A stretch of 64,000 bases of DNA from Mytilus galloprovincialis (lineage: Eukaryota; Mollusca; Bivalvia; Mytilida; Mytilidae): contig NC_134844.1 in the NCBI RefSeq assembly GCF_965363235.1, positions 55,486,872 through 55,550,871 of the forward strand, in the 5' to 3' direction. Made by a program: the position numbers and the translations under genes. The notes below the pieces were generated by a model. The model was not told the DNA's origin, ran no database searches, and saw only the letters and a list, made by a program, of their open reading frames with translations. Positions 3,501-55,820 of this stretch are shown here, one piece after another (position 1 is the first letter of the stretch; every line of letters starts with the position of its first letter).

Positions 3501-6500
3501 TTTAATTAGGAACTTTCCGTTTAGAATTATCCTAGGAGTTCGGTTATTTTGTTATTTTACTTTTTAAATGCATGATAGAAAAACGGGTTTCTTGACAACA
3601 GTATCCAAATTACAGTTGTAGCTACAGCATCTAGCATCCATCTTGTAGTAGCCATCACTATTACCCTGCTCTTTAAAAAATGTGTGTAAATATTTCATGC
3701 AGTTTCATTGCTAGTGTTATGGTGACCTGCTGGCTGATGCAATGCACATTATTTTATTTTATTACGTTCTTTGGTTTTCAATCCTATGTCTTACTTACCA
3801 TTACAGACTGGTTTAACCGCACATTGTTTTTGCCCGGTAACAGATAATGATTGTTGGTCAATGTGTAATGTGTTGTACATTTTTTAAATATGTTCCAGAG
3901 TATTCGAGTATTTTTGGAGATTTGCTGGAACATTTTTTTGTCAATGACTTAGTTTGTTTTTGACTTCAAACTGCTTTAAAGCCCCAGTCCCACTAGACCA
4001 CGATCGCACCACGCTCTACGCGATCTAAAATAACTTGAGATTTTGGTGAGGTCGCGGTATGAGCGGCATGAAAATGTAAATGTTCGTTGCTTTCACAATG
4101 ATACTAGGTCCTCATTACGCTTCTACAACGATCCCGCTACGATTAAACCACGTTATCACCGCGCTTATTCTGCGACCTCACTACGCTTATCAAGATCTTT
4201 TTACGCTCATTACGTTCTCACTACGACCATACCACGAATTATCCGATTGCAACACGATCGTACAACGCTTCTACTGCGATTATAGCACGTTCTTACCACG
4301 ATTATACTATGTTCATACCGAAATTACTACGTTCTCAGCAATAATATCAAAATCGTGTTCCATATCAATACAGTTCCATTCCTTCTATTTCTGATTAAAC
4401 CCTAATCCAGCAAATATGTCGGAACGACCAATACAACCTGAATTACAAACTATTCCTGGTCCATCAAGCTCAAATTACGATATGTTAGTGAACGATAGTA
4501 GAGATGACAGAGATGTGTGAATATAATTTTTTTTAGAGGATGTGGTATGATTGCCAATGAGACAACTCTCCACTAGAGACCAGAATGACACAGAAATTAA
4601 CAACTATAGGTCACCGGACGGCATTCAACAAAGAGCAAAGCCCATTCTGCATAGGTCTCGAAATGACAATGTAAAACAATTCAAACAAGAAAACTAACGG
4701 CTTTATCTATGTTCAAAAAATGAATGAAAAACATATATGTAACACATTAACAAACGACAATCACTGATTTGCAGGCTCCTGACTTGGGATAGGCACAAAC
4801 ATACATAATGTGGCATGGTTGAGCAGTTAGAGAAAGTGGAAAGAAATCCTTATTAGAAGAGAGATTTAATATATTTTATGTAGAAATGACAATTAGAATG
4901 AAAGTCGTAGTATGAACGTAGTCAGGTCGTAGGAAGAGCGCTATGAGGGCGGCAAGGTCGTGCTAGAATCGTACTGTGGTCTTGACAGCGTGGTGTAATG
5001 CCCGCGTCACACTGTCCCGATTTTTACGCCGATGGCAACACGATTATGGAAATTTTCAAAATCGGGAATGATCGTATCCAGATCGGGCTATTCGTAGTGC
5101 CATCTTTAACCATCGTAGAACCATCGGCCACTTTTTCTAGCCTTCGGGGACAACTTCGGGAAGGGTTCTAAATTTTTTAACATGTTAAAAAATCCCCGAA
5201 GGTGCGTCCGATGTTGAGGGTTCGTATTGAGTTCGTATCACCATCCTCACCATCGTAATATCACCGGGAATGCATTTTTGAACATCGTATTGCATTCGTG
5301 TTTCCATCGTTTCCATCGGGCAGTTTTGACATTACGATGTCTACACGAATGAATCACGAAGCTACCCGAAGGTCTTACGATGGCAACACGACTTCGTGAA
5401 GACCTCGTGATCCCGTCGTGATGCCATCGAATAAAAGTACGACGGTGACAGGATGGAACTACGACGGCAATAAATCCAGTTAAATGTAAGTTAATTTTCG
5501 CGCTTAATTACATTTAAAGTGCCATGCGCGATATGCACTGGTCAGTCTAATACGTCAGTTAAGAAAGACGTTCACAAAACATGGAGCTCATATCATATGA
5601 TTCTATGAGAACAAGAAAGGCGACAGCGTTGTTTCTATTAATTCAAATTGAACAAGAAAAGCAGGTATTACAGGCTCAGGATTTACTTTTACAAATAAAA
5701 TATAATTTTTTGTCAATTTTTCATATCAAATAACATAATGAAAATCATAAACGCGCCTCGTATACCAAAACTGCAGGTACACGTATATAGGGAAACCAAC
5801 TTTTTCTTCATTATTCTTATTTTTTATGTATCGTCTGAGTTATTGTCACACGAATGTTTACTCCGTAAGCATTTTGTTTTCTATATGTCATATTTTGCCG
5901 CATTTATTGCTTTCCCCACATCCTTCCTTTAGTCTATATTATTATGATATTTTCCTGGAAAGAGCTCTTTTTGAATAAAAGTGATCAACGAACCCATTAC
6001 CTTACCTTTAAGATAGATCAGTAAACATGGGCATAATTATGGGTGATTATTCAGACTAGTGCACACATTTTTCAGTTCAAACAAGGCAATGTCGAGCGTG
6101 GCATCCCTCGTATGTAACATATTGGGGACAAATATGTACACTATATGTGTATATGACACATGCAGAAAATGGTAAATTGAATACGCATATTTGATACATA
6201 AACTATTTTTTTTTTAGAAATCAACCAAATTATTCAGTAACTGGAAATACCCACGGTCTTCCGTCTTATGATTAAACCAAAAATTAAATGTACAATATAA
6301 TATATATTCAATATTGATCAAACTATTTAAAACGCGTGATGCCTTCGGCATATAATTTAAATGCATCGTAAGCTGTACACGACGTCTTTTAGACATCGTA
6401 TGGCCATCGCGCCATCATCGTTATCCATCGTGTAGCCTTCGTGATCCATCGTGTAGGCTTCGGCTGAGATATGAAGCTTAAATACCGTCTTCGGTTAACC

Positions 6501-9500
6501 TTTGTATGTCCATCTTTTGCTATCGTATATACTTTCGGCACCCTCGTATAGACTTCGTTATTCATCGTACTTGCTTCTGTCATTTTTTGGTATTTTAACG
6601 AGATCGGGACCAACTTCGTACGAACTTACAATTTTCGCATTCGCGTGTCCATCGTATATAAAAATCGGGATAGTGTGACGCGGGCATAAACGGGGTATAT
6701 TCGTAGTGGAAGCGTAGTTGGGTCGCTGTGAGAACGTGATGGTCGTAGTGAGGTCGTAATAACGTCGCTGTGAGATCGTAGCGCAGTCTCTTCGAATAGA
6801 ATCACGCTTTCGCTACGCTCTCGCTACGATGGTACAGCGACCTTTGCGATCTTTACACGATCTAACTGCGCTCTCACTACGCTTCTAATACGACCTGATT
6901 TCGCCCGACCGCACCACGATTGTTTGAACACGTTCAAAGTTGGCCACGCTCATCACGATCATCAAGACCTCACCACGACCGTACTACGACCTTACTGAAC
7001 TTATCCGAATTTAAACATAAATACAAATCTATGTACTTTTAACATTACCATCATATTTTTACTGTAATGCCATATCATAATTGTTTATTGTATTTTAAAT
7101 TGTACATAATCTTTCTTTACCATTATTGTTGATGCATTGTTTATTTGTTATGTAATTATTATTGTATTAAGAGAGCCTTATTGAAAATTGGTGTAATCCA
7201 AATGAGTTACTCTCTCTAAATAAAGATATTATTATTATTATTATTATTATTACTGCGATCTGCACGATCGCACTACTATCGTCAAAATTTCAACGAGCAA
7301 TAATCGGCAATGTGTGAACCCCGCATTAGTCAAAGGCAAGGAACAGGTTTTTTTATTTCTATTGCGTTTTTTTCTATTATCTTGGTTAATAAATGTTTCC
7401 ATGGGTTCAAGTTAGTATATTGAAATCGAAATGTTTTGTCCAGGTTCAGAACTAATATAAAATCAACAAACTAAAAATTAACACAAATACCGAAAAAGGG
7501 GCAGAATTATTAATTTACTAGTACACCTATTTTGTTCAGTGTTTCATTAGGCCCTTCTGTTTTGTTTTGTATTTTAAAACCATTCTTTCTGAAGTTGGAG
7601 AAAAAGAATGAATTTGAAAACGTGCAGATTTTATAGAATATAAAATACTGACCATAATCTGAACCAGTGAATCCATACATATCCCAACATCCATCGGCGT
7701 TTTTAGAATTAGGTACTGCTTGTGGATATAATATAATGATGTTATTCAACTCTCCAACTTCGTTATAACCTGTATGTTTTACATATACATCATCGATATA
7801 ATGTCTGAAAGAGTAAAACAATTGTTAAGTTTATGAGGGTGTGGATTTGGGTTTGGAAAATAGAGAATAAAGGGCAAAATTATTAGGAAAACTTGCCCAA
7901 ATAATTAGAGAATACAGAATAATGAGGTGCTAAAATATAGAGATATTATATATATACTGACTTGAAGCAATCATATTTTGCTTGATCTTAAATAGTACGT
8001 TAATAACGAAATCCAGGGAAAACTGCTGGCTTGAATATTACATAATTGATCTTGTTCTAGTTTGACGGATTTTGGCTTCTTTGTTTTGTATATGTTGTCA
8101 TAGAAACCCATAACCAATCATGCATATATACATACCTGCCCATTTTGCATCCATGAAGTGCGATGTGAAGCTTACATTCTACAAAAAAAATAAAAAATAA
8201 TAAGGTATGTCATTTATTAAATGGAGGGATTTTTTTTATATTGTACTTAAACAATTAATTTTAAAAATATATAAACAAGGGCACTTTTCCCACCCAGCAT
8301 TACACCCCTTGACAAATTGACGCAAGTTTGGCAGTGCCGGATGTCAAATGGGGACCTTAAATTGCAACAACTCTTCGAGGATTCCGTAGGTGGCCTATAT
8401 AATTGCGATATTTGATCTCTTTAAAATATACCGTCATTTCCCAGTGCACTTTTTTTTTCTTGTCTTATCCTTTCAATCATCTGTTTTATGTCTCCCCAAG
8501 GTTAGCACACTAGTAATATGCAGTAGATGCAATAAAATAGGGACAGAAAGTATACCCCCTTCGAGTATTAATACATCTATCTCTTTTACACATTCCTATG
8601 AAAACAATCAAAAGTTTAAGTATGAAAACTGCATGCCTCCATCATTCAAATGAATGTAGTATTATTCAACTATTCTATAGTTTATGGTATATCTGAACAT
8701 TAAATGGTTTCTTTTTCAAAGTGGTCAAAATATCGTCACCTCCATTGACTACCTTATCCATTTTACTTTTTTTCATTGATCCACGGAAAATATGACATTG
8801 ATATATCCTCGTTAATTTCAAAGAGGCTAGTATATAGTCCCTGACATGAAAAATTTGAAACAATCAACAAATTGAATACAATCAACGTCATTATTCATAA
8901 TAAAATGAAAGCTTACTACTTGTATTATGAGAACATCCTGACGGAATATATACGTATCCTGTATTATCCATACTGTACCCCGATGTGGAGTTTTCTGTAA
9001 ACTCTGACTGGTCAAAGGTCAAAAGCTAGGAATAACAAAATATAAAACAGTTTCATATGTCATTGACAAGCTTCGGGTGACGCCCACATCAGTAGAATTT
9101 TGGTATTGTATTTTTCTTTATTCATGGTGTTTGTTTGTAATCCCTTTCATTTTTCAATGTTTTATTATGGAACACACAAGTTTTGAGCCCTATCAGCTAT
9201 TGCAATGCTTACATATGGGGATTTGTACAGTTCCCAAACAAGTCAATGAAATAATTTCCTCGAACTTGAAACAACAAAATACATTAAAACGTTGTTTTGA
9301 CTTTTCTAGAAGATAATTTTCAAATTAAACTCGCCATGTACATGTATGAGATGTCTATAAAACTCCTTTTTTGTAGAGAAACTGTGATCAGCTAGTTAGT
9401 CTAACGTAAAACATGTTGATCTTACAAAAAAAGGACACTCGGTTATTACTTAAGTAGAAACAAATATTTTGTAGTGGAAAATTTTCAAGTGCATTTTCTA

Positions 9501-15500: not shown

Positions 15501-18500
15501 GCTAGAATTATGAGGATTTAAGTAATTTAGCATGACTTAATGGTGCTAGTACATGTACCGGATATATGTGCATTGTATAGTCAAAAACAGCCCATATTTA
15601 TGTAGCAGAAGCATTCTACTGTCCAAAAAATAACGAAAGGTTTACATTTTAACAATTTCGTAAAACTGCTATATTTTGGGGCCAAAAAGGGGTCTTACTG
15701 AACCTACTCCTTTTATAACAAAAATCTCTGTATTAAAGGCTGTGGATTTTCTATAAAATTCTTGATTTATTTGCCACAAAGTCCTCTTTTTCTATCAAAT
15801 GCAATGAAACAGTAAAAAATAATGCTTTACATCAAGTTTCCCCTTGTAACATGTACTAAATGGCCTATCTCTATTATTTATTATATCTTTAGTTTTGATA
15901 CAATTAAGGTTTGAAAAATTCGTGCAAAAATGGCTACAGAAGGGTACATACACCTTAAGAAGTTTGAACTTGAACGTGGGTGTTGATTGCTTTTAATTTC
16001 ATACAGAATATCCCATAAAAATTAGTATTATAATAAACATGTTCTTGGATTAATTTGCACTTCTCATAAGTGCAAATTGGAACCACACTTTTTTTTGTCG
16101 TAGAATCACCAAATTTGGCAATAATGTACCTCTGGGGATAAATAACACAATACAAAAAAAAAATTGGTGTGGCTCGCCCGGTTCGGCAACTGGAGTGAAA
16201 ACAGTGACAAAATCCTGTAGGATATTTTTTTCTCCCATAGGATTTTTAAAAATCCTACAGGATTTTCAGAAATCCTATAGGATAAAGTCATAATCCCATA
16301 GGATATTTTTTATATCCTACAGGATATTTAAATCCTAAGGGATAATAAATCCCTTAGGAGAATAAAAATATCCTATAGGATATAGTTTCTCCCTTAGGAT
16401 TAAAAAAATCCCTTAGGAAAAATAAAAGCATTTCCTATAGGATATTTTTTATCCTACAGGATATAAGTCTAATAAGATAATCCCATGGGATTAAAAATAT
16501 CCGATAGGATTAATAAATATCCTAAGGGATTTCATTACAGAAAAAATATCCTGTGGGATAAAAAAGAATCCTAAGGGTAATAAATAAATCCTAAGGGAGA
16601 TTAAAAATCCTGTGGGAGATCAAAGTAACACATAAGAGAGAAAAAATCCTATGGGAGAAAGAAATATCCTAAAGGAGAAATGAATATCCTATAGGAGAAA
16701 TAAATATCCTATGGGAGAATGAAATATCTTATCAGAGATAAATCTATTTGTGAACAAAACCAAAGAACAGATAATAGTTTTATATGTTTTTGTAGTAAGT
16801 AAGGATATTATTTTATTGGACCAGACCAAATATTCCCAGATTTCATTGTTCAAGAATTGTTGATTTTTCTACCAATGACACAAATTCCCGATAATTTTAC
16901 TTGGAGCTTGCATTGTGTTACTGCTACTGGTCCGTTTGTTATTTTATGTTTATTATTGCCATTTGCGTAGTTTCTTCTGTTACCTATTCCCACATCTGAC
17001 TCTGGCTTCTTTTAAACCGAGTTTTCTCTTTTTTATGCATTGTGGTTGTTTATTCCTCATTTGCTAAAGGAATAGGGGCCGGTTGAGATATCAAAAGTCA
17101 TGAATACACATTCATCGCCTGGTTCAAAGCAGAAACCTTTATCCTTTAGTAATATCATGTGGTTTTTTTTCAATTAAATTCAAAAGTGCATTCTAGTGTT
17201 TAGTGTAGCAATCATTTCACTGAACTGTTATACATTATTGTTTAATGACCAAAAGAGGTCCGCCTCCATGTGCGGAATTTTCTTTCTACATAGAGGACCC
17301 ATCATTTTGAACTCATTAGGGTTCCTGTACTCACACGACTTGTTTTTTTTTACTGAGACATGACTGTGACACCATCTGAACAAAAACTGTGAATAAAATC
17401 AGAAGCAATTTTAAAACAACACATGGTGTTGGGGCTAAGAATACCACCAGCTTTTCATTGAAAGTAATGACAAGACAGAAACATGCGTCCAACGGGTATA
17501 TCCAATACACTACAATTACTTAAACAACTTTGAAAATCGTACATAAGTGTTTTTGATTTTTATTAAATATAGCTTGCTTTCCGTGAAGATATTTTTATTG
17601 TGGAGATGCCTGAATAGATTTGCCAGTAGCCATACTTCTTCGATTGTGTCCTCAATATGCATGTAGTATTTGCAACTGAACATTTACATTAACTTTCAAC
17701 AATAAATTCTTCAACAAAATTTGATAATAACTGAAATTTTATGGAACTAAAAACTAGATGTTCTAAAGACAGTATTGTTCACATTGGTCTATGTGCATCT
17801 CTGACAACAGACACATCAACACGTTAGGCTAGAATAACATTCGTAACTAAAACTTTCAAAAAAATCATTATTGCTGATAATTTCAGAGATTAAAAGGAGA
17901 AATCATTTTGCTTTTGTTTAATCCGCTTTCGTGCGCATGGCTTTGATGGACGCCAACTCTTAAGTTAGAATATGGTCAGCTTGTTAAAATGTTTATGTAT
18001 TAAAAAGTTTTATCAAGAAAATGGAATAGAAATGTCGACAATAACAAATTGAGATATTATATGCTAAAAATAGATATAAATAAAGTCAGTGGTATGAGTG
18101 CTTATATTACAATTGATTTGGCAATGGAGAAAAAATGTTCCTATCCATCAATCTTTTAAAACTTTACACACTCTGTGTTCTCTTTGTTTTTTTTTTTTAC
18201 ATAAACCTATGTCAATTTCCAAGTTGTGGTCCCTTACGCGAAATTTTGTTAAAATTTGAAGACTATTAAAAATTAAATAGGTCAAAGAACAACCTTCAAC
18301 ATTTGAGGCTTTTTATAGCCAAGGCTTCGTTTAGTTTAAACATATTTTATCTAAAAAAAAAAAAAAAAACAGCCTTCAACACGGAGCCTTGGAAATTAGA
18401 AAATTTGCAGTTAGAGGCCGCAAGAATAGTAACAGGTCTACCAATATTTACAAAAACTGAAACTTTATATTCTGAGGTTGGCTTGGAATCTCTTTTTGAA

Positions 18501-21500
18501 AGAACAAAGAGAAAAAAATTACAGATGTTTTAAAACATTTAAAACCCGGCCACGTCCACTTGTATTTTTTGTCTATCTGACGAGTTAAGCCTTTTTCAAC
18601 TGATTTTTATAGTTCGTTCTTATGTTGTACTGTTATACCACTCTCCAAGGTTAGGGGGAGGGTTGGGATCTCGCTAACATGTTTAACACCGCCACATTAT
18701 TTATGTATGTGCCTGTCCCAAGTCAGGAGCCTGTAATTCAGTGGTTGTCGTTTGTTTATGTGTTGCATATTTGTTTTTCGTTCATTATTTTACATAAATA
18801 AGGCCGTTAGTTTTCTCGTTTGAATTGTTTTACATTGTCTTATCGGGGCCTTTTAAAGCTGACTATGCGGTATGGGCTTTGCTCATTGTTGAAGGCCGTA
18901 CGGTGACCTATAGTTGTTAATGTTTGTGTCATTTTGGTCTTTTGTGGATAGTTGTATCATTGGCAATCATGCCACATCTTTTTTTATATGAACCAAAAGC
19001 ATGCACCAGAATATCTATGTAATATTGTACCTCCTTGTGTACAAAGTACAACCAACTACCCGTTGCGAAATAGTCATGATATTATTGTTCCATTTTGTAG
19101 ACTTTCCCTTACTACTGAATCGTTTATTCCCTCAACTATACGAGAATGGAATAAACTTAATCCAAAAAATCGCAGTGTCGACTCTATTTCTAAATTTAAG
19201 AAAGAATTAAAAAACGATAGTCTATTATGTAAAACTGAAACGTTTTATTTGTACGGCCCAATGAAATTAAATATTATCTTAACGCAATTTCTATGTTCCA
19301 CTTCATTCTTAAACAATGACCTATTTAGAGCTAATATTATAAAGGATCCTTCTTGCCATTGTGGGTCCGATATTGAGGATGTCTACCATTACTTCTTCGT
19401 TTGCCCAAAATACACATTATGCAGAAAAACCTTATTCCATAACCTTAACTGGCTGTCTGAAAACTTTGTTTTAGATACAAAACTATTAATTTGCGGACAC
19501 TTAGAACTTTTGAACGAACAAAATATCCAAATTTTCAAACAAGTTCAAAATTTTATAAAAAGGTCAAACAGATTGCTTATGCCTTGACAGAGCGTTATTA
19601 TTACTGACACGGAACGTCGTCGTTGTCATCAATTCACAAGTCATCGTCACAGAATTATACGACTTTTCAAACTTTCTTTTCCTCTTTTTACTTTCTCTCC
19701 TCTTTGTTCACCTATGAAAGCTAGTATTTATTTGTATAAACTATTTGTTTTATGTGCATGTCCATTATATCATACAATTATTGTAACTTTATATTGTATT
19801 ATGGAGAAGACTTCATAAGTATGATTTACTTGTGTCTAATCCATTTTTCTTTAATTCAGCAAATAAAATATGTCTAAACTAAACTGAGCCTTGTCTATAA
19901 AAAGCCTCAAATGACACATGAACAACCGTTCAAACAGGAAAACCAACGGTCGAATCTATAAGCGAAACTAGAATCACTTATGAACTATACATTAGCAAAC
20001 GACACCCACTGAATAACAGATATCTGACATAGGACAGCTGCAAGCAAACAGTATAGGTGTATATGTTTAAAAGCCTTAAGTATACGGATAACTCAAAAGA
20101 CTTAAGTTATAATATTCTTAATGTTACCAGAACCGTATATATATATGTTAATTAAGATATGATATTTCTAAAACAATTTCTCGTCCTAAATATGCATGAA
20201 ATACTTGCCACTGGACATTAAGCAACCAACAATCAACCAATCAAATTGTACTTTAAAAATTAATTAAACAATATAAACCACAATTGTGTTCATCACTTGT
20301 TGTCAGTTGTCTGTTTGTACAAAATATACTGAATTCGTTTTTGTCCAGAAATATATCATTGAGACAAGTTCAAGTATGTAAATAAATGCATACGATATCG
20401 TGAGGTAGTTGAAATTATCCAGTAGAATCATTTTGTGTCCGTCGTCGTCTTTCATACATATCAAGTGTTGTATTCACTGTTAGCGTTAGGCATGGTCTCG
20501 AAATTATAGTCCCTATTTCGGTATTGACTAATCACGAAGGGGAAAAGGGGGGGGGGGGGGGTCCACGGGTCAAACACCTTTTTCTTTATTAACAATAAAC
20601 ACTTTTTTTTAAAATTAAATAAACCGATGTATACTTCAGATGTTGAATCAAAAAAAGATTTCAAAACAATAATAAATCTTAAATTCAAAAGTATTTTATG
20701 GTAAACATATTTAATGTTAAGGTTATATTCTATGCAGTTAGCAGTTATGTAATTTGACACTTGTCTTACGGTTTCGCTACTTTCGGCAAAATCTAAACAT
20801 TGTTCAATAGGAAGTGTTTTTTTCTCTTTATCGTGTCTAGATTGTTTTGCACATTCGTTTATACTTTTATATATGTTGTTGTTTGTAATTTGATAATAGT
20901 GTTCCAAAAACGCAAATAGCTGGGTGACAACTATTATTTGCTTATGATAATGTCTTGGGATGACTCCGGACTCCGGACCATTATTTGTTCGCTTTGAATT
21001 ACACGGAATTTCTGCCAAAGCTTAGTGAGTATTATTAGAATGTAGGACAAAAAGTCACAGGACCAAAAGTCACAGACTAAAAGTCACCAAAAAAAGTCAC
21101 AGGTCAAAGTCAGAATTCATTTTTCTGATTATTTTCTTTGGGTAAAAAACGCTTATTTCTACAAAAATATGTTTGTATTGTTCTTGAACTATTATATATA
21201 AACCAACTTTGTAAACAACATGCATTTACCCAAAAAATATCAAAGATGATTAAATAATTGTTGAAAACAAACAAAATATTTCAAGATATTTCTTTTACAT
21301 ATTCAAAAACTAATCAACATTTTATTTGTGACTTTTTGTCCTACCACTTTTGTGACTTTATGTGCTGTGACTTTCTGTCCGTTTACCTATTATTCAACCA
21401 GGTAAGTTTTCGCAAAAATGTGCTATCGAAAATACAGGTGAACGCATTAATTCGGCACTAAAATGGTCTCTCATGTCGGCGCTATTATGTCCTTTAGTAG

Positions 21501-24500
21501 TTAAATTTTTTCCTCCAAAAATCGAATTTCACGTTTCGGCATTTTCGTGCATTACTTTTCCGAAATGAGTAGATACCACTTTTCCGCATTTTACCTGTAT
21601 TTCACCTGTAAAAAGTGATAAAAACGATATATATATATAACTGAGCCTTACGGTCTTATTAGCTATAGCACCAGTTCGTAAAAATGACCGCGAACGAATT
21701 GAATTCGTATGTCCGAACAGTTTGTCAAGTATGGTAGAGAAGAGATTACGAGGTTAGACTTCATAAAGTCAGTTGGCTATAAGTTTTACACTTTGACCAA
21801 TATGCATGTAAATTGGCTAAATTTACTGTAAAATACTTTACTGTCGTTTTCTGTTTTATCTGCATGCATAATTTTATATAAACTTTTAGCGCTGAATATT
21901 GACTTTAAATATTTGAATTTGATGTGACTTACTGTACATCCTTTTCCATGTTTTAGGGGGGGGGGGGATGGTTTGTTGGTGTGTGAGGGGGGTATGTCTT
22001 GTTTAATCGTAGAGAGACTTTATGATTGTAACTTTTCTGAAAATAAAAAGAATTGAAAAAGATAAAAACAAAAACAAACAAAAAAACCATCTCGATAGCT
22101 ACAGATAAAAACGTAAAGTTACAAATAAAAATAGCTCGTTGGTGTAATTTAAAAAGACTAAATATTGATTTTAGTTATTGAACTTGAATAAGAATTTGTA
22201 ACATTTATCCCACCTAGGACACCTCTTAAAAAAGATGACTGGTAATGCTTTACAAATTTAACGTGGCAGTTTCTGAGACATGGAACATTCTGTATAGGTA
22301 GTGATTTACTTTGACATGTTTGGGTATTACAGCAGCGTTACATGTATATTACTTGTATATGGTAAGGTATACATGTATATATCTATTCCGAATTTCGTGA
22401 CAATTAGGTTTTATTACATTCACAATTCTGCATTTTCTGTATTCCAAATTCACATTTTTTTTCAAACCAAATATCATTGATGATATGTAATTTTTGAAGG
22501 AAACAATTTTGACTATCAAATTGATTTCGTTGTTACTATTATATGTATTAAGTCATTGAAATTAAAAAAAAAATCATACGGCTTGTCCACGAAGAACTGA
22601 AGCCGATATTATGGAGTATTACATGAATTGCATGGATGTAATAAAACAATCCAGTTAAGTGATATAAGTTAAGGTCCCTCTTAAATCATGAATGGTCATG
22701 CTATAAAATCGGGAGAGTTTCTTTGACATGGTATACATTCTGTTGTGATTCACATTGATATTTCCGGGTGTTACAGAGCTACATGCATGCTACCCGTAGA
22801 TGATAAAATGCAGCCCCATAAGATCTTGCGTATAGAGGTTCACGTTAATATTGGTACTTAAAACTTCTTTTTTCAATCATTCAGTTATTTTCTCTCGTGT
22901 AAATAGCCAGATTCTAATTATAGCACTTGATTTTTAATGTTCCCAAGAATAGTTCTTCCTTTAAAAATTACCCGTTGTAATTCAATACAAAAATATTTTG
23001 GTTTTATAACTTCTTCTTAAGATTTGTAAATTTGAACATCATTTATCATTTTATGACATCGAATTTAACCATTCTAAATGTATATGTTCAAAATTATTAT
23101 TTGGTAAACATCGGACCTTACCCTAAATATAATTCAATATTTCACAACGATCTATTTGTATTTGCCAACGTCTTTAATATGCAATTTAACTTGTGTATTG
23201 AACTCGACTTTATTACTTATTGTCCTTTCGAAATGACAGTCACACCTGACACGTGTACCCTAATGTGAGAATAATACACACATCGCATAGTTAAAGATAG
23301 TAAAAGGCAAATACTAAACTTAATTTGAAGATTTACTTCATTTGTCCACCATATATGTCGAGAAATCAAATATTAAAACAAAAAATAAAGATTTAATTTT
23401 TAACAAGGATCTCTAGTTTAGAATTTCACTTTACCTTAGTTACTTTCATGGAACATCCTGATCAACAAGAAAGTAATGATACATTTTGCAAGATTTGAGA
23501 GACTTAGATAGCCATAAAGCAGTAAATGTAAGTTATAAAAAATGTAGTATAGACCTAAACACATTTTTTTTTCATTTCCCTTCAGCCGAGATTTTTTCCA
23601 AGAAAAAAAATCAGGAATCTAATAAATTGATAAAAAAGAACCATTTCAAGTAAAAGATGAATGTTGTACGAATTTAAGACTTTTAAAATGCAACTTCGTA
23701 AAAAAGTAATATATTAAAGAAATATTTTAGTGGTTAGTAGGATAACGTTTGATATTTATGGATGAAACGGAAAGCGGGGAGGTGGGGGTGGAGATACAAT
23801 TAATTTTATAATAAACAGGCTGTGATCTTTAATTTTGATGAAAAAATATAGGATGTGCCATTCCATCCCCCCCATCCCACCTTAAAAAATCGTAAAAATC
23901 GCACGTTTGTTGCCAAATACATGAATTTAATATTCAGTAGTGGGGGTCCCGGGGTTGGAACAACCCTTTTTTGGATGATCAATGCATTTAAATGGGACAT
24001 AAAGTTGGACCCCACCCTTGTTTTGTCCTGGATTTTGACCTGGATCCGTCACTGATATATAAATTCGATAACAATATAAACGTTTCAAAAGAATGCATTT
24101 CCTACTTAATTAGTACATGAAATGTTTATAAAAAATGTTTTTGTCTTATTATATATATTCAGGCATATACTTTAATTTTTTTTTAATTCATGATCGGGAA
24201 TAAACACGTGTTACATTATGATTCAATCGCAGCTTACCCGCGCCCAAAATTGATGACATAAGTTGAATGATTTTCTTCTAGATTTGCTGCTTATTTGGAC
24301 GTGTATTACATGAACACTTTTTGTTTATAGGGATTCTATCTTATGATAAGATTTGAATTTTATTTACTTATTTCCTGTCTTATTTTTATTGAAATATACA
24401 CGTCAGTATCATCATTTCTTTACTTTCAGCATTGTCCAAAATACTATTCATATCCATATATTGAAGAACAATTTAATGACCGAATATTTTGCTTCATAAA

Positions 24501-33500: not shown

Positions 33501-36500
33501 AAATATTTTCAGTTCAATATCAGTAAAAATGTTCAATAAATATTTTATGAAAAAAATCTCAACAATAATTAATTAAATTTATTCAAAAACATTTACTAGA
33601 GATAATTTTATAGGAGTTTAATTCAATCAATACAAAACGGTATATGCATATTCATTTTCGATCATTCTTATATTGTGGTTCATACCTTCGACCATTCGTC
33701 AGCTGTGCGCTTTTAATTACGTATATTGTTGATAAGCTATAAGAGTTAAACAGATTTTATTTTTTCCCAGAATTCAATAAATCGGGCTAATACGTCACGA
33801 CCCACTCGAGAATTCAACCAAAAAAGTTACAAATACTTGATTTTCTCCGTTATTAGAAGGAATATAAATTTAAAACTTTGCAAATGTGTTTTTTATGTTA
33901 AGATGAACATAATTAGATGATAAGTAAAAAATCGCGGAATTTCCCTTTAACAGTCATATGTTTTTTTTTTTTATTATAGAGAGATCCCTATACAGATTCA
34001 GATTCAATATTTTATTAGAGTCTCACCACTTGCAATACATATAATACAATCACCATAATGTATACATTGAATAAAACAGTAATTTTATAAATTAAAATAC
34101 AAGTGCCATTATATAAAGAATTATGAGAGACTATAGAAATCAATATAAATTATTAACTATATATTTATCATGTCTATAAAACATTTCCATTATGTAAAAC
34201 TATGAAACTACATTTATCATGTCTATAAAATATTTCAGGTCTGTAAAAACATATTTATCAATTAAGCATATAAAAAACTATTTCTTCTACTTAAAATATT
34301 AAAGCAGGTCTTGGCAACCATATCAAAACAATCTGTACTTTTAAAAGGGTATATAAACTTCTCATACACCTTATCAAGCCAAAAAAAAAAAAACGTTCTA
34401 TGTTTAAATAAAGTAAGGAGCTAATTTCATATTACCTGCCATTAAAAATATCACAAAAGGCACATATATATTTTGTGTGGATGAAAAGTTTAACCATACC
34501 ATTTTTATAATATCAATTCGTGGAAATCAAACTAAGTACATGCAATAAAAATCAGAACAAGGAAAATACTTCTCTATTTATTAACTATAACTACTAGAGT
34601 AGATAATGATCGTTGAATATGCCTTATGTCAAGACCTGTCCAGAGACAAATTCAAGTTCCAAATGTTATATGAATATGAACCGTGCTCTAGACTGATAGT
34701 GTCGAGAAAGATTTTTAGCGTGCTAGTTCACAAGGTAACACTCCGTATTAAGACATCATTTAGCAACTCGAGCACATACCAGTCGAGTTTTTTTTACAGA
34801 TATATCATGTAATGGAGGGAAGTATAACTAAATTATTAATGCCACTTGCTAAGCGGAGGAACAGCAATTCTAAATTTTGACGTATTTGGTTTGACCCGCA
34901 CCAAGTGCAAAAACATAACCAAAAGAAATCTGAAGCTGTCAGAAAAATATAGTATCATACCAGATAAAACTACATTGTAAAATGCAATAAGTAACCCAAG
35001 CTCAAAGAATTTTCCCTTTTATTTTAGGCAGCAAAATGCATTTAACCAATTGATATTATTGAAAACTGTACTTGAAAAACGATGGTCGATTTAAGCGTAG
35101 ATTTCATGCACGAACGCTTTCTGCACATTTGGTACTCTTGCAGCAATTAATTGAAGGATCCATGTGTGACCAGCTGTTGCAAGGCTAAACTCACGAAGTT
35201 CTTTTTTTTTATCCAATATATCCTCATTTTGCAAATTACCATTCCAAGTTCCATGTCCATTCTCCCAGTCGACCTTTTATATTTGCTATGAAAAGCCTAC
35301 CTATTGTATTTAAGAAATAATTCATGGGGGCTTGAATATATCGTGATTTTACCACGGGTTGGCCCTTTATGACAAATATTTTACCCCTGAGCGATAGCGA
35401 GGGGTAAAATATCGGCATAAAGGGACAACCCGTGGTAAAATCTAGGTATATTCAAGCCCCATGAATTATTTCGATTCTGATAGGACAAATACGGCAATTC
35501 TTTTGGATCGAAGCGCTCTAGGTGTAGGCAAATATTTGCCGTTCCCATAAATAAACGCACTAATAAACTAGCGTAAAAGAACGGAGTAAACTGCATTAGT
35601 GACATGCTTAAACTATTTAAAATAATGTATTTAGACAGTTTTGGATGAATTTGAATGATAATTTATTTATATGTCTTATATGATGTACAATAAAGGGCTT
35701 TTGCCACATTTTAGCATCATTTGTGTATGTTTCCTTGTGATGATTTTCGGATTCACAAGCGTGTATTTTCCCGTAAAATGCTTACATTCTAACGTCATTG
35801 TTCTATGACGTCGGGTATCTCGTTCATAAAAAAGCATATGACGTGGGAGTACAATCGGAACAGCACTGGCAATATATTCATATTTTACCACGGGTGTGTA
35901 CTCAAAGCGTTTGAAGGACGTCATGTTAGAATTATAATTAATGTGTTCTCGTTATGAACATACATGAAATATTTGCCACAGGACGTAAAACAAACAACAT
36001 TTATTAAACACTCATTAATAATAAATATCATGAAAACCATATACGAAGGCAAGATTTGCACAATCCTATAAAGTAATATTTCCATGTATCCGTTTCGATA
36101 CTTATGGAAACTTTAACGATCCTTTTCAGGTTTGCGTTCAATATCGTAGCAGCTACGTAGTGCGACGTAGATTTATGACTATTGAACGAGTAGCTAGCTT
36201 AGCTGCTATTAATATCTACGTAGCAGCTAGGCTAGCCACCCGTTCAATAGTCATAAATCTACATAGCCCTATATAGCCGATAAGATATTGAACGCAACCC
36301 AAGGTCGTATTCAATATCGTAGCGGCTACGTAGCTGGTATAAATATCGATGTAGCAGCTAGGCTAAATACAAAGGTTGAGTTCAATATCGTAGCAGCTAC
36401 GTAGTGATCAATATATATGTAGCAACTGGGCTGAGTTCAATATCATAACATGCAGGTACGTAGCGGCTACATAGCTGCTATATATATCTATGTATATTGG

Positions 36501-39500
36501 TATTTTACAAACGTTAACAATCGTTAACGTTTGTAAAATACCAACAAAACTGACGAATTCATCTTAGATCACAATACGTATCAAAATTTAATCCTATGGG
36601 AGAAAAAATAATCCTATAGGACAAAGTTAATCCTAAGGGAAAACAAAATATCCGACAGGACAAAATTTATCCTAAGGGAGAGAAAAAAATCCGGTAGGAG
36701 AAAAAAATATCCTATGGGAGAAAAAACATCCCTCAGGACAAAATAAATCCCTTAGGAGAAAAAATTATCCTAAGGGACATTTGTTTCTGACAAAAAGTCG
36801 TTCATGATAATCCTATAGGATAAAAAAAATCCTATCGGATTTAACACTTTTTTTGAAAATCCTACGGGATTTTAAATCCCATAGGATATTAATTTTATCC
36901 CATAGGAGATAAATTTTCCTATAGGATAAATAAATCCGATAGGATTTATATATCCCGTAGGATATAAAAAATATCCTATGGGATTATGACTTTATCCTAT
37001 AGGATTTCTGAAAATCCTGTAGGATTTTTAAAAATCCTATGGGAGAAAAAAATATCCTACAGGATTTTGTCACTGTTTTCACTCCAGTTGCCGAACCGGG
37101 CGAGCCACACCAAATTTTTTTTTGTATTGTGTTATTTATCCCCAGAGGTACATTATTGCCAAATTTGGTGATTCTACGACAAAAAAAAGTGTGGTTCCAA
37201 TTTGCACTTATGAGAAGTGCAAATTAATCCAAGAACATGTTAATAGATGTTTTTCATTATCATTAATGAAATAAATTTCATACAAAAGAATTGACTGTCT
37301 TCAGTCTGTATCATGGTTCTTTCAGATCAGTAAAATATGTACCAACATTTTCAAAATTCTAGATGGACACCTTATTGAAAATACAAAACAACGCATAGCC
37401 TTAGGTTCTAAAAAATACACTTCGTTGAACATTAAAATTTATGGTTAACCTGTACCCACGAAATACACGAATATTGGTATTATACATATATTGATGAATC
37501 CACAGACTGAGTAGACTATATTTTATGAAATATAAATTGTCAATCATGGATTCTCATTGAAAATACATCATGTTACAGCTATATCGAGAGCCTCATACAC
37601 TGTACACGTATACGCTAATTGGTGTAATGGTTCCAAGTATTCTAACATAAAAAGCTGACTTGAGTATAATATGTACGGGAATATCATGTGACAGTTTCAA
37701 ACTTACGTGGGTTAATTTGGGTGTCTGCTCTTCCTGTAAAAACATATACTCTATCGTTTTTCATGTTTGAAACTGCATCAATATTGCCTTTACTGGCTTC
37801 AGAGACTGTGAGGTGCTCCATTGAGGAGACTGACTCAAACATTGGTATTTTCATGCATGCTAATGCAGCTATAGATGAACCATGAGCACAACCATAAGGA
37901 ACTGGGGAAAAAAACGCAGCGTCAAAGTCTATTATACATGAATGCACCCTTTTGTCTCAATCAAAAAAGTTAAGAAAGTTACATCATGTTCAATGTAGAG
38001 TATGTTATTTTTAATGTGTTATTTCGTTTATAAGATATAAGAAGATGTGGTATGAGTGCAAATGAGACAACTCTCTATCAAAGTCAGAATTTATAAAATT
38101 AAACAACTATTGGTGTACGGTCTTCAAGTTCGATAAAAACACAAAAAGTTTGAAATGTTTTGCTCATTAGTTTGTTTTTTGAAATTATATACGATATATT
38201 GACCAAACAAAGAAAAATGACTAAGGCCGTGTTCACACCAAAACGCCGTGTACAGTAAACATCTTAACATTTGGTTTAATGTAATGTACACTAGTTTTAC
38301 ATTAAATTTAATAAAATTGAGAATGAAAATGGGGAATGTGCCAAAGAGACAACAACCCGACCATAGAAAAAAACAACAGCAGAAGGTCACCAACAGGTCT
38401 TCAATGTAGCAAGAAATTCCCGCACCCGGAGGCGTCCTTCAACTGACCCCTAAACAAATATATACTAGTTCAGTGATAATGAACGTTGTTCACATCTATA
38501 CGACTTGTTTAGCTACCTGTACATATAATTTGTTCACACTTGTAAACCAACTATGGTTTCACGCCATTATTCCGACAGCCCATTAGTCCGACAACCCATT
38601 AGTCTACAACCCAATAGTCCGACAACCCATTGCTCCGACAACCCAATACTCTGACAACCCATAAGTCCGACACTTATCAAGTACAGGATATCAGGGTAAA
38701 ATAAAATTTGTCTGTCTGTATTATTACGTTTAGATATGTAATAACATATTTTAAGAAATAACTCCGCATATATAACATAAGTTTAAGGTAGTTCGAATAC
38801 TTTCTATATACTCAATTCGAAATCTGAATAAATATAACAGAAAAGAATATATACGCATTTTGACTGCTCAAATATTTCATTTTCCAAATTAAAGGATCTT
38901 TAAAGAGCATATAAATCAAGAACAACCATTGATGATACGAGCTACTGACGATACCCCGCCAAAACATTTCGGTAAACAGGAAGTTTTTGAGTTACGAATC
39001 TGAAAAAGCACCTCACAGTATAACTGACTTATTCAAACTTTAAAACCAAATTTCAGAAATCATTGTATTGTAGTTCCTGAGAAAAATGTGACGAAAATTT
39101 TCAACTTGGCTGTCATGTAATAAGTAATGAATTTGAAAACGCATCACACGATATAGACGACTTCAATAAACCTTTCAGTAATCCTTGTAATGTAGTTTAT
39201 GAAAAAGATGAAACGAAAATAATTATGGACGGTTGGACGTATGGAAAGACAGAGGAAGAACAGTAAACACCCACTTTTTCGACGCGGCAGTCTAATGATT
39301 GGGTCAACATTAAGACATTCCAATACTAATATGATATAATTATCTTTATAGCAATATAAGCCTCAGTCACAATCGGATACAAAGACAAAATAGGAAAAAA
39401 CAACTAACACATTGATATTAAATAACAGTCAGTATCAAGACATGTACTACATAATTAAAAAAAACTAACATTGTAAATAAATTATAATTTTCCCCCCATA

Positions 39501-42500
39501 ATAGTAAAGTTTTCTTGTGTTAACATAGATAATTTATCATATTTATCTAACTTTTTAAAGTTCTTACATGTGCTAGAAATATGGTGAAAGAGTTCCTCCC
39601 TCAAATTATTATGAAGTGAGCATTCGATTGAAAAATGACGCTCATCCTCAACCTTATCAGCTGTACAATATGATATTTTGAGTATCTAGCATTTTCAATT
39701 CTTAATGTAATGGAAGAGCGGGCGTATGACATTTGCGCCAATTTAAAAAAAAATCATTCTTTCATTTGCGCAGATTTCATTTTTTTATTTGCGCCGATTT
39801 TATATTTGCTCCCAATTCGATTTACAGGTAAGTTCATACTTGTACATGTACTGATATGTATCTTTTAGGCCTTCGTTCACCTCCCCGTGGTGAACAGGGG
39901 ACAACAATTATATACAAGTTATGATTGAAATTTATTACATTTGTACAAGTGGCTAACGGAAGAGGTCTATAATGATAAATGAAAAATAACATGGAGAGTT
40001 GTCTCATTGGCACTCATACCACATCTTTTTATATATATTCACCTGAAATTTACCTGTAAAAAAATAGGCGCAAATGAAAATGAAAATAGGCGCAAATGAA
40101 AATAAAAATCGGCGCAAATGAAATGCAGATCGGCGCAAATGCAAAAAAAGACAATTTGACAAAGACACAAGCGGGACAATAATGTCACACATTGTCTTCG
40201 ATTTTTTACTAGTTTGTTATTGGCTTTTATACTGCACTCGTTCTAATTGAGCAGTCAAAATGCATAAATATTTATTTCTATGACATATACGGTCACTGAC
40301 CCGATATCACTTTTCCTTATGAATATTAAGTTAGAAGTTGCCGAAATATTCATGTCCGTCATATATGTTTTTCGTAATAAGTTTTGTTGTAAATCATCAT
40401 TCCTGCATCTCTACCAACCATAATAAAAGAGACATATTTTTTCTAGATTTTAAAATAAGCTCAGGATATAAAATCGGTATCCCTACAAATATATAAAGTT
40501 TCATCTCTCAGACTATGTCTGATCGATCGCTATTGGAAGTGCTTTGTACTGTCTCCGTATTTCGTGGATTCACATTCCCGAACATGATACCGTTTTCATA
40601 ATTGGAATTGCTCATCTTTTCTGAGCACATATTTCATCCTATTTGTCATCTTATTTTTAAGGATCTGGGTATGTATTTGTCTCTTTGTTTTTCTCATTTT
40701 GACTGACGCTTCATTAGCCCATTATTTCTGCGACAAAATTTAAATAAAACTCAGATGAGTGATACAAGTGAGAAAGTGTTGCGACCAAAGAGGGCGGGTA
40801 GTGTTATATATCCAACTCCGATATATTTATTTATGTAGTTAATAGTGCGGATATGTCATTTAAATGTTCAATACGTAGAACCGAATTCAAATTTTTTAAG
40901 CAACTTTTCTAGCAGTTAGGGAACGACCATTTGACTTTAAATAAAAAGGGGGGATGGATTTTTCCACAATTTAATTAAAAAAAAAAATCGGGTCATACAG
41001 ATGATTAGAATGAACAAATATTCTGAATCCAAAGTTTCCCCATACATTCAGTATAGTGTTAAATATTGAATTGGTACCATCGAAAACAAAACTAAATATA
41101 AACTTTCGCGCGAGAAAAAAAAATAGACCCAGAACACCCTTCCCCACTTTAAAAAAAAAAGTAAAGTGGTTGCTCCTTTAAGAAATTCATTTTGGAGGAT
41201 TTGCAGTAGTTTAAAGATGTCTCGATTAAGCACTTAAAACGTAGGCTGCATCAGCGTGCTTACAGACGAAGAAAAAAGAATTGCGATGTTAAGGATCACT
41301 ACATTTCTATCTTTTCTGTTTGTTTCAAATTGTATTTTTTCTCCAAGGAGTATTTTGCAAAGGGAGGGGGTAATAAGGCTACGTAAAGTGCTTTTATAAC
41401 AAATACATATATCAAGTTTAGACAAGTATTTTTGTAAAGAACTTTATTAATAAGTGTTATAAGTATCAATTTTATATAAAAAATTATTATTATGTTTAGT
41501 TTATGTGTGGGTTACACTAACATAACACCGAGTTTAGGTCAATGTGAACACGGCCTAACATACGTTTCCGGAAGTACACTTGTTCTATGTCTCAAATGTA
41601 TGTCTACCAAAACTTTTATTGAGATTTATTGAAGAAATGTTTGCAATAGAGAGAGACTAAGCTCTTAGACTAAGTCTGCACTCAAAACATTTTAATAATG
41701 TGGTGTGTTGCTTGTGTTGATTTAATTTGACGTTATATAAGTCACCTTGTATGAATATATGAACGGAGGAATTGTGCTTGATACATGTACTTACTTTTCG
41801 AGGGTGCTGTCAATTTTTGTTAAGTTAACTTTATTCTATTAACAGAGTATAGAGACTAGAGGGGATTGAATTATATTGGAAAATATGGTCGTCTGTACAT
41901 ACTTGTATTGGATAACAAATGCCTAGTATTATACATGAATGCATGTAATATGTAAATTTGTAGGTATGTATGAAAATTGTCCGTTACTCAAAAGCTATGT
42001 GTTCATAATGTAGTTCAATGGAATAAAATATACCGGTTTATTTAGAGAATCTTTGAGAAGAAAGGTACCCGTGTCACGACTTCAAAGAAGACAGTTAATT
42101 TGAAATTCGCTTGACTGATGTCTAATTGAATTCATAAGCGAATCTTTTAAAACATCTAGTTTGCAGATGTTGTTCACCAAATGGTATACAGGAATTAAAT
42201 ACGCACCTCCAGCAACCACTCCTACGCCAATAAAGGAAGCAGAATGTATCACGTGCATTTGTGTAGCGAATCCAGCACCAGAAGATATACCGGAAATAGA
42301 AACTTTGTCGACGTCAACATTGTAGGAACCTTAATTTATATAAAAAAAAATAATATAATTAATGTCGGTAAATCAACAATATGTAGCACTTTTTATGAAT
42401 CCTAAAAACAACCGAAACTTTTAAAATTCTAATATTTCAATAACGCAAAAACGCGATTGCATCGTTTTCAACAATGAATGTGAAACAGGAAAATGATTTA

Positions 42501-42806: not shown

Positions 42807-42809
42807 GTT

Positions 42810-43640: not shown

Positions 43641-43647
43641 ATTTTAG

Positions 43648-50187: not shown

Positions 50188-50306
50188 CAGTGGCGGATCC
50201 AGAACTTTTCCTAAGGGGGCCCGCTTCATTCATGCTTCAATGATTCCCTATATAATCAACCAAATTTCCCCCACAAAGGGTTTGGGGGGCGCCCCCTGGA
50301 TCCACC
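50188..50306. mobile_element. ~119 bp MITE, TIR CAGTGGCGGATCCAG, copy 2
   Basis: Same as the copy at 49729, at the same position in the second tandem unit, so the MITE was present before the duplication. A one-ended relative (TGGATCCGTCACTG) ends at 24053. Confidence 0.7.
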
Positions 50307-51560: not shown

Positions 51561-51667
51561 ATCAAATTTGAAATTTTTAAGTGTCACTTTTACCGTTCAA
51601 GAGTTATCATGTCCCTTTAAAAAATATAAGAAGTGCTGACTATCTCGTTACCTTTGTCTTAAATAAG

Positions 51668-51891
51668 GAGGCCCCTCATGGGGGGTCCTAGTAATCACAT
51701 AATCACCATTTTTTTGCCAATATAATCACATAATCATTAAATATTTGCTTATCTTTAGTAATCAAATTATCATAAACTAAAAATACAGTCCTAGGTAATC
51801 AAATAATCATGAAATATTTGGCTTAATAATCAAATAATCATTAAAAAAACGGCCAAGTAATCACATAATCAAAAACCCCATGAGGGCCCTC
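51668..51891. mobile_element. 224 bp MITE with TAATCANATAATCA motif arrays
   Basis: Ends AGGCCCCTCATGGGG and CCCCATGAGGGCCCTC are inverted. Between them are six double words of the type TAATCACATAATCA. No other content. Confidence 0.7.
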
Positions 51892-52769: not shown

Positions 52770-52912
52770 TCATAGCTGACTATGCGGTATGGGCTTTGCT
52801 CATTGTTGAAAGCCGTACGGGGACCTATAGTTGTTAAAGTCTGTGTCATTTTAGTCTTTTGTGGATAGTTGTCCCATTGGCACCCATACCACATCTTCTT
52901 TTTTATATCTTC
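52770..52912 (-). mobile_element. Mussel repeat A, copy 11 (inserted in repeat B)
   Basis: AGCTGACTATGCGGTATGGG to CACCCATACCACATCTTCTT, reverse orientation. Repeat B sequence is found on both sides. Confidence 0.7.
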
Positions 52913-55690: not shown

Positions 55691-55701
55691 GAATATCATG
55701 T

Positions 55702-55820
55702 ATGTGTTCCGGACCATACGAGTATTTGGACCATACGCATATATCATGACCATAAGGGTATACTAATATGGTCCAACCATACACGTATGGTCCAAATACT
55801 CATAAGGTCCGGAACATATT
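55702..55820. mobile_element. 119 bp palindromic MITE with GGACCATACG words
   Basis: ATGTGTTCCGGACCATACG and its inverted counterpart frame the element. GACCATACGNGTAT words occur about six times in the two orientations, so the whole sequence can fold on itself. Confidence 0.65.

Follow-up and report, generated by a model that had tools for sequence, protein, structure and literature searches.

The window analysed here, a stretch of 64,000 nucleotides of Mytilus galloprovincialis DNA, raises the question of what the arrays of short motifs at the ends of its repeats are, and whether they have one origin. A sequence-only reading had proposed that at least nine unrelated repeats share a layout and a common mechanism. 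The arrays are present where that reading placed them, but neither the nine families nor the single mechanism holds. The explanation favored here, with a probability of roughly 70% as a whole, is that several unrelated DNA transposons lie in the window, each in a non-autonomous form as far as seen, and that their family-specific end arrays would serve transposition as sites for a transposase or partner protein, a design that probably arose by convergence.

The largest of these elements is a giant DNA transposon of 21.2 kb (16036..37241, forward strand), with ends AACATGTTCTTGG...CCAAGAACATGTT and an AATA duplication at 16032-16035 and 37242-37245. Its terminal inverted match pairs 16033-16462 with 37244-36810 at 89.7%; the TCC....GGA words near 16.2 kb mark one end of this element and those near 36.6 kb the other. 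The end sequence is found at 132 places genome-wide with at most one mismatch (control, 0), and 38 of the 40 copies paired among 100 listed ends of the 132 span 10.7-32 kb. A 4-bp target duplication flanks the window copy and 15 of 20 other copies; four of the 20 right ends lack a duplication and one has a 5-bp match (duplications at three ends were read by eye). The window copy carries several other repeats.

Two of the presumed families are parts of the giant. The AGCTACGTAG (AGCTACG) repeats (36129..36500, unstranded) are the inner part of its right end, and the GTCCTT words (26395..26930, unstranded as a feature; forward at 26395-26480, inverse at 26870-26930) lie within it. Among 40 scored places for each, 28 for AGCTACG and 29 for GTCC are inside the 40 sized giants, and in both cases 11 more are within 35 kb of another giant end. 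The GTCC stretch from 26482 onward is matched in all 40 of its scored places and the left stretch (26380-26481) in three.

The AAAGTC element (21038..21387, forward strand; flanks TATTATTA and TATTATTC, equal at 7 of 8 bases) is a family of its own that is inserted in the window copy of the giant; 3 of its 40 scored places are inside sized giants. Family members with both ends found measure 489-536 bp and have an 8-bp duplication. The sample comprised 26 loci, from which copies in duplicated giants (L039-L042) were excluded and of which four had no found right end; with edges allowed to shift by a few bases, 17 of 22 copies have a duplication of at least 8 bp and five do not. The ATTTGCGCC (TTTGCG) element (39720..40150, forward strand; motif spacing 33, 23 and 22, 22, 21 bp) has a duplication of 8-9 bp in five of eight other copies, the remaining three lacking one of 8 bp or more. 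Both families thus have the 8-bp target duplication of hAT elements, a length that superfamilies other than hAT also produce.

The TACG element (3979..7290, forward strand) is likewise non-autonomous as seen, and its right terminus was not found in this copy. Three sequences break it up: the ATCG element, a short repeat of the dispersed kind at about 4535-4833, and an insertion at about 7003-7250. Eight other copies were tried by eye; five of the seven with a readable right end have a TWA duplication and two do not. The ATCG element, which the earlier list had counted separately, spans 1,688 bp (4999..6686, forward strand; TIR TGCCCGCGTCACACTGTCCCGATTTTTA; TAA at 4996-4998 and 6687-6689); equal TWA is found on both sides in six of eight copies, the window copy included, and the flanks of the other two (L005 and L006) are unequal. 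PIF/Harbinger transposons duplicate TWA, and both elements have this 3-bp duplication. Of 1041 PF13359 candidates 150 matches were scored; 39 ATCG places were checked against them, and none has such a match within 8 kb.

The TAATCA element of 224 bp (51668..51891, forward strand; AATAAG at 51662-51667 and 51892-51897) consists of direct repeat units of about 31 bp, each with two motifs 8 bp apart, and the 6-bp duplication is present in 14 of 14 copies, in three of which the insertion falls at the same site of a larger repeat. The GGACCATACG (GGACC) motif forms an imperfect palindrome (55702..55819, unstranded) within a longer repeat, whose matches extend over 55080-56425 and which measures at least 1.2 kb. 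The list of nine separate families is therefore rejected.

The proposal that every motif recurs in inverse direction at the opposite end is borne out for four of the nine: AAAGTC (forward to inverse 5:0 at one end and 0:3 at the other), TTTGCG (3:0 and 0:4), GGACC (3:0 and 0:2), and GTCC (3:0 and 0:2). It does not extend to the remaining five. TAATCA is a single direct array with 11 forward motifs and 0 inverse; TCC....GGA is palindromic, as is the centre of AGCTACGTAG, and neither has a direction; the left end of ATCG is mixed (10:7) and the right one-way (17:0). TACG is 16:2 on the left; on the right its inner block is inverse (0:12), but the outer one (8:0) points the same way as the left.

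Ordinary ends with arrays produced by chance would have undone this picture, but most families do not fit that description: shuffles, real-DNA segments and autocorrelation reject chance enrichment as a general cause. The score used was the best inward word, that is, its forward count in the left arm plus its inverse count in the right arm. With 6-mers, eight of nine cases exceed all of 300 dinucleotide shuffles; AGCTACGTAG is the exception, reached by 61, and its enrichment is not beyond chance. With 8-mers, none of the 300 shuffles reach the giant, AAAGTC, GTCC, TTTGCG, or GGACC, and 2, 9, 15, and 100 reach TAATCA, TACG, ATCG, and AGCTACG. The real-DNA control used 500 segment pairs for each case from the same window: by 6-mers 0 reach the giant, AAAGTC, TTTGCG, TAATCA (whose 6-mer score comes from one arm only, 0+6), and GGACC, one reaches GTCC, four ATCG, 31 TACG, and 58 AGCTACG; by 8-mers the counts are 0 for the giant, AAAGTC, TTTGCG, and GGACC, five for GTCC, 12 for TAATCA, 132 for TACG, 156 for AGCTACG, and 165 for ATCG. 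Judged by exact words, which are degenerate in both, TACG and ATCG score weakly; their spacing signal is strong.

Autocorrelation, in which no motif is chosen beforehand, was compared with 60 shuffles, and z at 11 bp is up to 13.7 for TACG (uninterrupted copy) and 10.8 for ATCG. Peaks are found at 11/20/22/31/33/42/44/53 bp (TACG), 11/21/32/43 bp (ATCG), 20/39-40/59 bp (giant), and 22-23/33/43-44 bp (TTTGCG); in four control stretches z never exceeds 4.3 and the peaks form no series of this kind. Motif spacing amounts to whole helical turns in four families (about 10.6, 10.5, 20, and 22 bp); the spacings of AAAGTC (14-15 bp) and GGACC (17 and 19 bp) do not. TACG mixes gaps of 9, 11, 20, 22, 31, and 33 bp, and two of its three blocks keep these in a register of about 10.6 bp. 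When motif gaps were jittered by up to 6 bp in 2000 sets, the observed phase was reached by 0 sets for the left giant array and one for the right, by 0 for the left and 0 for the middle TACG block, and by 0, 3, and 2 for ATCG; the outer right TACG block, reached by 81, is not clearly phased.

The arrays of the giant consist of palindromic TCC(N4)GGA sites: 24 on the left (16213..16716, unstranded), mostly 17-21 bp apart with exceptions of 24, 29, 29, and 39 bp, and 23 on the right (36592..37064, unstranded), 17-21 bp apart with exceptions of 30 and 43 bp. One mismatch was allowed and sites with two or more were not counted; on this basis the core is exact in 46 of 47 sites while the central four bases vary. 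The outer sites are homologous between the two ends, so the 47 are not independent, but among the inner sites, which do not align between the ends, 24 of 25 cores are exact. Self-complementarity of the centre follows no general rule (outer pair in 16 of 47, inner pair in 22 of 47).

The sequence-only reading had asked whether the number of motifs varies between copies, and it does. The right arm of AAAGTC has 2-6 exact units in 22 copies, with length steps of 15 bp in most, and the left arm has five in 21 of the 22; in two copies with two exact right units there is a 39-bp gap, where a decayed unit was counted. The left array of the giant has 24-26 sites in 30 copies and changes in steps of about 20 bp.

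Exact cores around variable centres fit arrays that are kept for transposition, and we infer the following from the pattern. In each family a short site would be bound by the element's own transposase or by a partner protein that the element encodes, and occupation of several copies at once would allow the ends to be found and paired. The whole-turn spacing in four families would put the sites on one DNA face, an arrangement suited to a rigid oligomer. Slippage or unequal exchange may add and remove units, transposition retaining those that are still bound. Target duplications are of 3 bp (TWA; TACG and ATCG), 4 bp (giant), 6 bp (TAATCA), and 8 bp (AAAGTC and TTTGCG); since they differ between families, different transposases are needed, and the shared design of the ends would be convergent rather than due to descent or to one enzyme. 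The Hermes and Harbinger3_DR findings described below speak for this explanation. Several points weigh against it: no autonomous partner was linked to any family, nothing in two copies of the giant names the protein, the spacings of AAAGTC and GGACC do not amount to whole turns, tandem duplication of one unit likewise yields regular spacing, and the right-end and inner repeats of Hermes and the ends of mPing, also described below, point the other way.

Regular spacing by duplication is also part of the case for regarding the arrays as functionless by-products of a copying process in which end sequences multiply, for instance through slippage when gaps are repaired or DNA is replicated; we consider this unlikely. 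The variable right arms of AAAGTC beside a constant left arm, and the stepwise changes in the giant, are what such copying could produce. However, unit gain and loss alone does not explain why the giant cores are invariant while their centres differ, even where the inner stretches of the left and right ends cannot be aligned, nor would it be expected to hold the mixed gaps of TACG to a single register in two blocks.

The earlier suggestion that the arrays are multiple binding sites for a transposase or a host factor is retained in its first form as the best reading, a transposase or partner protein being the probable ligand, and the second form is a rival with a distinctly small chance of being right. 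Here the arrays would bind a host protein (a chromatin or nucleosome-phasing factor, or a transcription factor) that the elements exploit or that they serve the host by binding. A host architectural protein could equally be served by helical phasing and A/T-rich spacers, and G/C positions in the giant cores have private mutations at half the rate of those outside the array (6 in 92 versus 13 in 95). In contrast, the motif is different in every family, and across 26 of the 30 giant copies (L009-L012, a second subfamily and segmental duplicates, omitted) private mutations are alike on cores and on spacers plus centres (8 in 138 positions versus 29 in 406; p 0.71). Single giant copies thus give no clear sign that sites are spared or that selection acts at the level of the host; weak copy-level constraint may exist, as the test includes just eight core changes and the G/C rate is halved. 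That one autonomous element moves all families, as the idea of a common mechanism implied, is hardly credible: the ends share a general look, but their terminal sequences are unrelated, and a transposase giving four kinds of duplication would be needed to rescue a proposal that the duplications already contradict.

Subterminal repeats are familiar, and to our knowledge a rule for their placement is known from few elements. In this 64-kb window, four unrelated families hold sites in helical register; if a protein is shown to bind them, the idea that phased arrays pair the ends could be tested in different superfamilies. Hermes, a hAT element, makes an 8-bp duplication like AAAGTC and TTTGCG. 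It has many short motif copies near both ends, largely in one direction at each, and its description calls exact phasing of the left-end subterminal repeats crucial; some repeats are bound by BED domains of the octamer, those at the right end are not engaged by them, and auxiliary binding of inner repeats is reported as unlikely to matter in cells (PMC10368747). Unlike the families here, to which no transposase is linked, Hermes places its repeats asymmetrically at the two ends (PMC10368747).

Other systems resemble individual families. In Harbinger3_DR a Myb-like accessory protein binds a 9-bp subterminal motif (PMC9710019). The TACG and ATCG elements fit PIF/Harbinger in their 3-bp duplication, but they have tens of degenerate words in a register of about 10.6 bp, a feature absent from the parts of the Harbinger3_DR account drawn on here. 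For mPing, end sequences are described as important without a common motif (PMC9921582). Tm1, a Mutator/Foldback element of root-knot nematodes with 9-bp flanking direct repeats and a Phantom-like transposase, has long composite inverted repeats of a motif of about 14 bp whose number differs between ends and copies, and its description also mentions a Tc1/mariner element whose 355-bp TIRs are made of direct repeats and palindromes (PMC3169594). The families here differ from Tm1 in their duplications of 3, 4, 6, or 8 bp and in having no transposase seen, and helical phasing is not mentioned in the sections of that paper used here (PMC3169594).

The class of the giant is less easily given. Open frames from two copies were scanned, 40 in all: in the window copy 27 of the 30 that reach 70 aa, and in copy C6 13 of the 14 that reach 80 aa (the scan covered frames taken whole rather than spliced exons, and three window frames and one C6 frame in the terminal arms, with shorter frames, were set aside). 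None has a Pfam match of any kind at the cut-off. One weak transposon-related hit, a zf-RVT piece (E 0.0057), suggests a LINE fragment. Of the 1041 candidate PIF/Harbinger transposase hits, the 150 that were scored all lie outside the 40 sized giants, with none within 2 kb of one. Polinton/Maverick elements make a 6-bp duplication and encode a polymerase, an integrase, and capsid proteins; membership is rejected on the 4-bp duplication in 15 of 20 copies, and the same 40 frames have no Pfam match over the cut-off to this gene set. Academ, Sola, Ginger, and Chapaev make duplications of about 3-5 bp, so the duplication length of the giant would allow any of them, with no transposase domain in the two copies to set beside it.

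Kolobok and KolobokP of bivalves share with the giant the 4-bp length of the duplication, the form 5'-RR...YY-3' of the ends, and a terminal repeat length of some hundred bases (PMC9587614). Membership in either is rejected: Kolobok duplicates TTAA, whereas the giant duplicates any 4 bp and has TTAA in 0 of 15 duplications, and the terminal repeats of KolobokP are direct, with autonomous Pacific oyster families of 4.0-4.7 kb (PMC9587614), whereas those of the giant are inverted and its copies mostly 10.7-32 kb long. A search of open-licence PubMed Central literature under phased or palindromic transposon ends and giant bivalve transposons found no description of it. A bolder combination, which we put forward tentatively and think clearly more likely wrong than right, is that phased arrays are a general convergent end design of DNA transposons in this genome and that the giant is a new kind of transposon or a giant satellite of one. 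A dimeric protein would then coat some 0.5 kb of each end along one DNA face, with one dimer per TCC....GGA every two turns, letting a cargo of 10-30 kb be excised and moved without a recognisable transposase gene. At its size, and with no such gene recognisable in two copies, the giant would be a large vehicle for moving other repeats. Its long inverted repeats, with internal short repeats that vary in number, are those of a Foldback-type element, which is a structural label and not a superfamily.

The sequence-only reading had described at least nine unrelated repeats whose ends carry near-copies of a short motif in one direction at one end and the inverse at the other. For each array the highest-scoring inward 6-mer and 8-mer were compared with those of 300 dinucleotide shuffles, with 500 real segment pairs drawn from the same window as a second control. 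The arrays themselves hold: at k=6 all of the nine but one, AGCTACG (36129-36500), score above every one of the 300 shuffles. At k=8 the TCC....GGA array, AAAGTC (21038-21387), GTCC (26395-26930), TTTGCG (39720-40150) and GGACC (55702-55819) are matched in 0/300 shuffles, TAATCA (51668-51891) in 2, TACG (3979-7290) in 9, ATCG (4999-6686, interrupting TACG) in 15, and AGCTACG in 100. Real pairs at k=6 reach TCC....GGA, AAAGTC, TTTGCG, TAATCA and GGACC in 0/500, GTCC in 1, ATCG in 4, TACG in 31 and AGCTACG in 58; at k=8 they reach GTCC in 5 and TAATCA in 12, and TACG (132/500), AGCTACG (156/500) and ATCG (165/500) are not distinct from them. The proposed layout is found in four of nine (AAAGTC, TTTGCG, GGACC, and GTCC); TAATCA is a single direct array with no inverse end, ATCG runs mainly in one direction, the right end of TACG carries both directions, and TCC....GGA and the AGCTACGTAG centre are palindromes rather than directional arrays. 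Nor are all nine separate, GTCC and AGCTACG lying within one element.

That element, the giant, is a 21.2-kb DNA transposon (16036-37241) with TCC....GGA arrays at both ends, which match inversely (16033-16462 to 37244-36810, 89.7%). Its termini are AACATGTTCTTGG...CCAAGAACATGTT, beyond which the sequence varies. With at most one mismatch, the end pattern occurs 132 times in the genome (1.38 Gb, 331 contigs) and its reversed control never. The window lies at C7:55486872-55550871, and its repeats would fit a mussel. AATA flanks the window copy on both sides; when 20 right ends were fetched and each paired with its left end, 15 copies (12, and 3 on the other strand) had an exact duplication of 4 bp whose sequence varied from copy to copy, one a 5-bp match, and four no duplication. 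In 40 adjacent end pairs, from the 100 listed of the 132 ends, sizes are 1.7-32 kb (median 16.65 kb), 38 being at least 10.7 kb. In a bivalve transposon survey, Sola1 and Academ are reported as generally the longest curated DDE elements, with means near 5.5 kb (PMC10294476); thus the giant's 10.7-32 kb stands out, although those means are autonomous consensus lengths. Three same-direction giant ends lie about 5.8 kb apart at C7:70231039-70242692 on the window's contig; the two fetched share the same outer flanks, which marks a tandemly duplicated element end.

Of 40 scored places each, 29 for GTCC and 28 for AGCTACG fall inside the 40 sized giants, and another 11 of each lie at most 35 kb from some other giant end; for AAAGTC the counts are 3 and 0 of 40. 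The giant thus includes GTCC and AGCTACG, and AAAGTC forms a family of its own. Compared with the window copy, a 13.3-kb copy on contig C6 aligns in numerous blocks at about 82-95%, their order partly changed, so the interior is rearranged or replaced from copy to copy; 30 left ends show at least two interior versions, diverging near base 1850, with GTCC-type words in one. None of 40 open frames from two giant copies has a Pfam match at its cut-off; an autonomous copy may exist, since the full reading covers these two copies only. Two window ORFs of at least 150 aa are listed (translation code 11). A possible LINE-like coding fragment lies inside the giant at 18952-19584 (zf-RVT E 0.0057, under the cut-off) and at 29232-29507, the one stretch matching the other at 71%. 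A GGACC repeat copy (C1:14113272-14113472) sits within another giant (C1:14109058-14127270); giants thus collect other repeats.

The giant's left array begins 178 bases inward of the end and proceeds in steps of 20, 20, 20, 21, 21, 18, 17, 21, 19, 19, 24, 19, 29, 19, 20, 29, 20, 20, 19, 39, 20, 20, and 20 bp; the right also starts at 178 and shares the first six steps, later ones differing. Across both ends the six outer bases (core) are exact in 46 of 47 sites under a search tolerance of one mismatch, including 24 of 25 inner sites, where the ends no longer align well. The four-base centres vary (TATA, CATA, TAAG, CTTA, TGTG, and others), self-complementarity not being the rule, and spacers are A/T-rich. 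Among 26 copies, private mutations occupy 8/138 core positions versus 29/406 in spacer and centre (p 0.71), shared variants number 0 versus 9 (p 0.12), and private mutations at G/C positions number 6/92 in cores versus 13/95 outside the array. On the simplest interpretation, the cores were conserved while the lineage was mobile, not after insertion; weak constraint may act on them in single copies.

Autocorrelation, with no motif chosen beforehand, shows peaks in series at multiples of the helical turn in TACG (11, 20, 22, 31, 33, 42, 44, 53 bp), ATCG (11, 21, 32, 43 bp) and TTTGCG (22-23, 33, 43-44 bp); in four control stretches z never exceeds 4.3 and no helical series appears. Gaps in eight TACG copies are 11 (126 times), 22 (34), 20 (32), 31 (23), 9 (21) and 33 bp (13), other lengths occurring at most 6 times each. 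With every gap jittered by up to 6 bp in 2000 sets, the observed phase is reached 0-3 times in seven of eight arrays and 81 times in one. Eight TTTGCG copies have spacings of 33 and 23-24 bp on the left and 21-22 on the right (43-44 if one word is lost). AAAGTC (14-15 bp) and GGACC (17, 19) spacings are not helical; TAATCA has a repeat period of about 31 bp, its motifs lying in pairs at a distance of 8 bp. Phasing can arise partly from unit duplication. The open-licence PMC text searched yielded neither a report of helical register across families nor a description of the giant.

Target duplications differ among families. Equal flanks of the 3-bp TWA type border the 1,688-bp ATCG element in 6/8 copies (37 other near-full places at 93-98%, plus partial ones, among 40 scored of 10437 candidates) and TACG in 5/7 readable right ends of eight copies tried. 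AAAGTC has at least 8 bp duplicated in 17/22 copies, TTTGCG 8-9 bp in 5/8, and TAATCA 6 bp in 14/14, the window copy, L120 and L121 representing one common insertion site. The family names assigned to 3, 4, 6, and 8 bp duplications are partly presumptive. These differences require different transposases, which contradicts the suggested common mechanism in the sense of one autonomous partner; the similar look of the ends is therefore convergent.

Arrays at transposon ends are of a known kind, and their best-supported role is as a landing platform that an oligomeric transposase or a partner protein would bind. Hermes places BED domains on three strictly phased left-end subterminal repeats but leaves those of the right end unengaged (PMC10368747), and the 9-bp site of the Myb-like protein of Harbinger3_DR lies subterminally (PMC9710019). 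Motif number, raised earlier as a question, does vary between copies: the AAAGTC right arm has 2, 3, 4, 5, and 6 exact units in 2, 2, 6, 11, and 1 copies (both two-unit copies also hold a decayed unit), and the giant left array 24-26 sites across 30 copies, with one extra isolated match each in L016 and L026. Slippage or unequal exchange would account for such changes. Tm1 has foldback-like ends with arrays of about 14-bp units that vary in number (PMC3169594).

GGACC is part of a longer repeat filling three of four 1.3-kb stretches compared, the match in copy L108 ending 78 bases short of the stretch end; main alignments are 97-98.6% alike. Around TAATCA (51650-51920) the flanks are also common to 17/40 scored places, the window's included, so TAATCA is nested in a further repeat, the two spreading together. 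A further short direct array, CCGACAACCCATTAGT-like with a spacing of about 17 bp by eye and absent from the sequence-only reading, lies at 38550-38680. A short dispersed repeat, presumably mussel-type, has many window copies in both directions at about 71-91% identity, nested in other elements (4535-4833, 13190-13607, 18623-18989, 43641-43959, 50935-51550, 52771-52908, and 60916-61045), and a stretch of about 435 bp is tandemly duplicated, with 95% identity, at 49386-50279.
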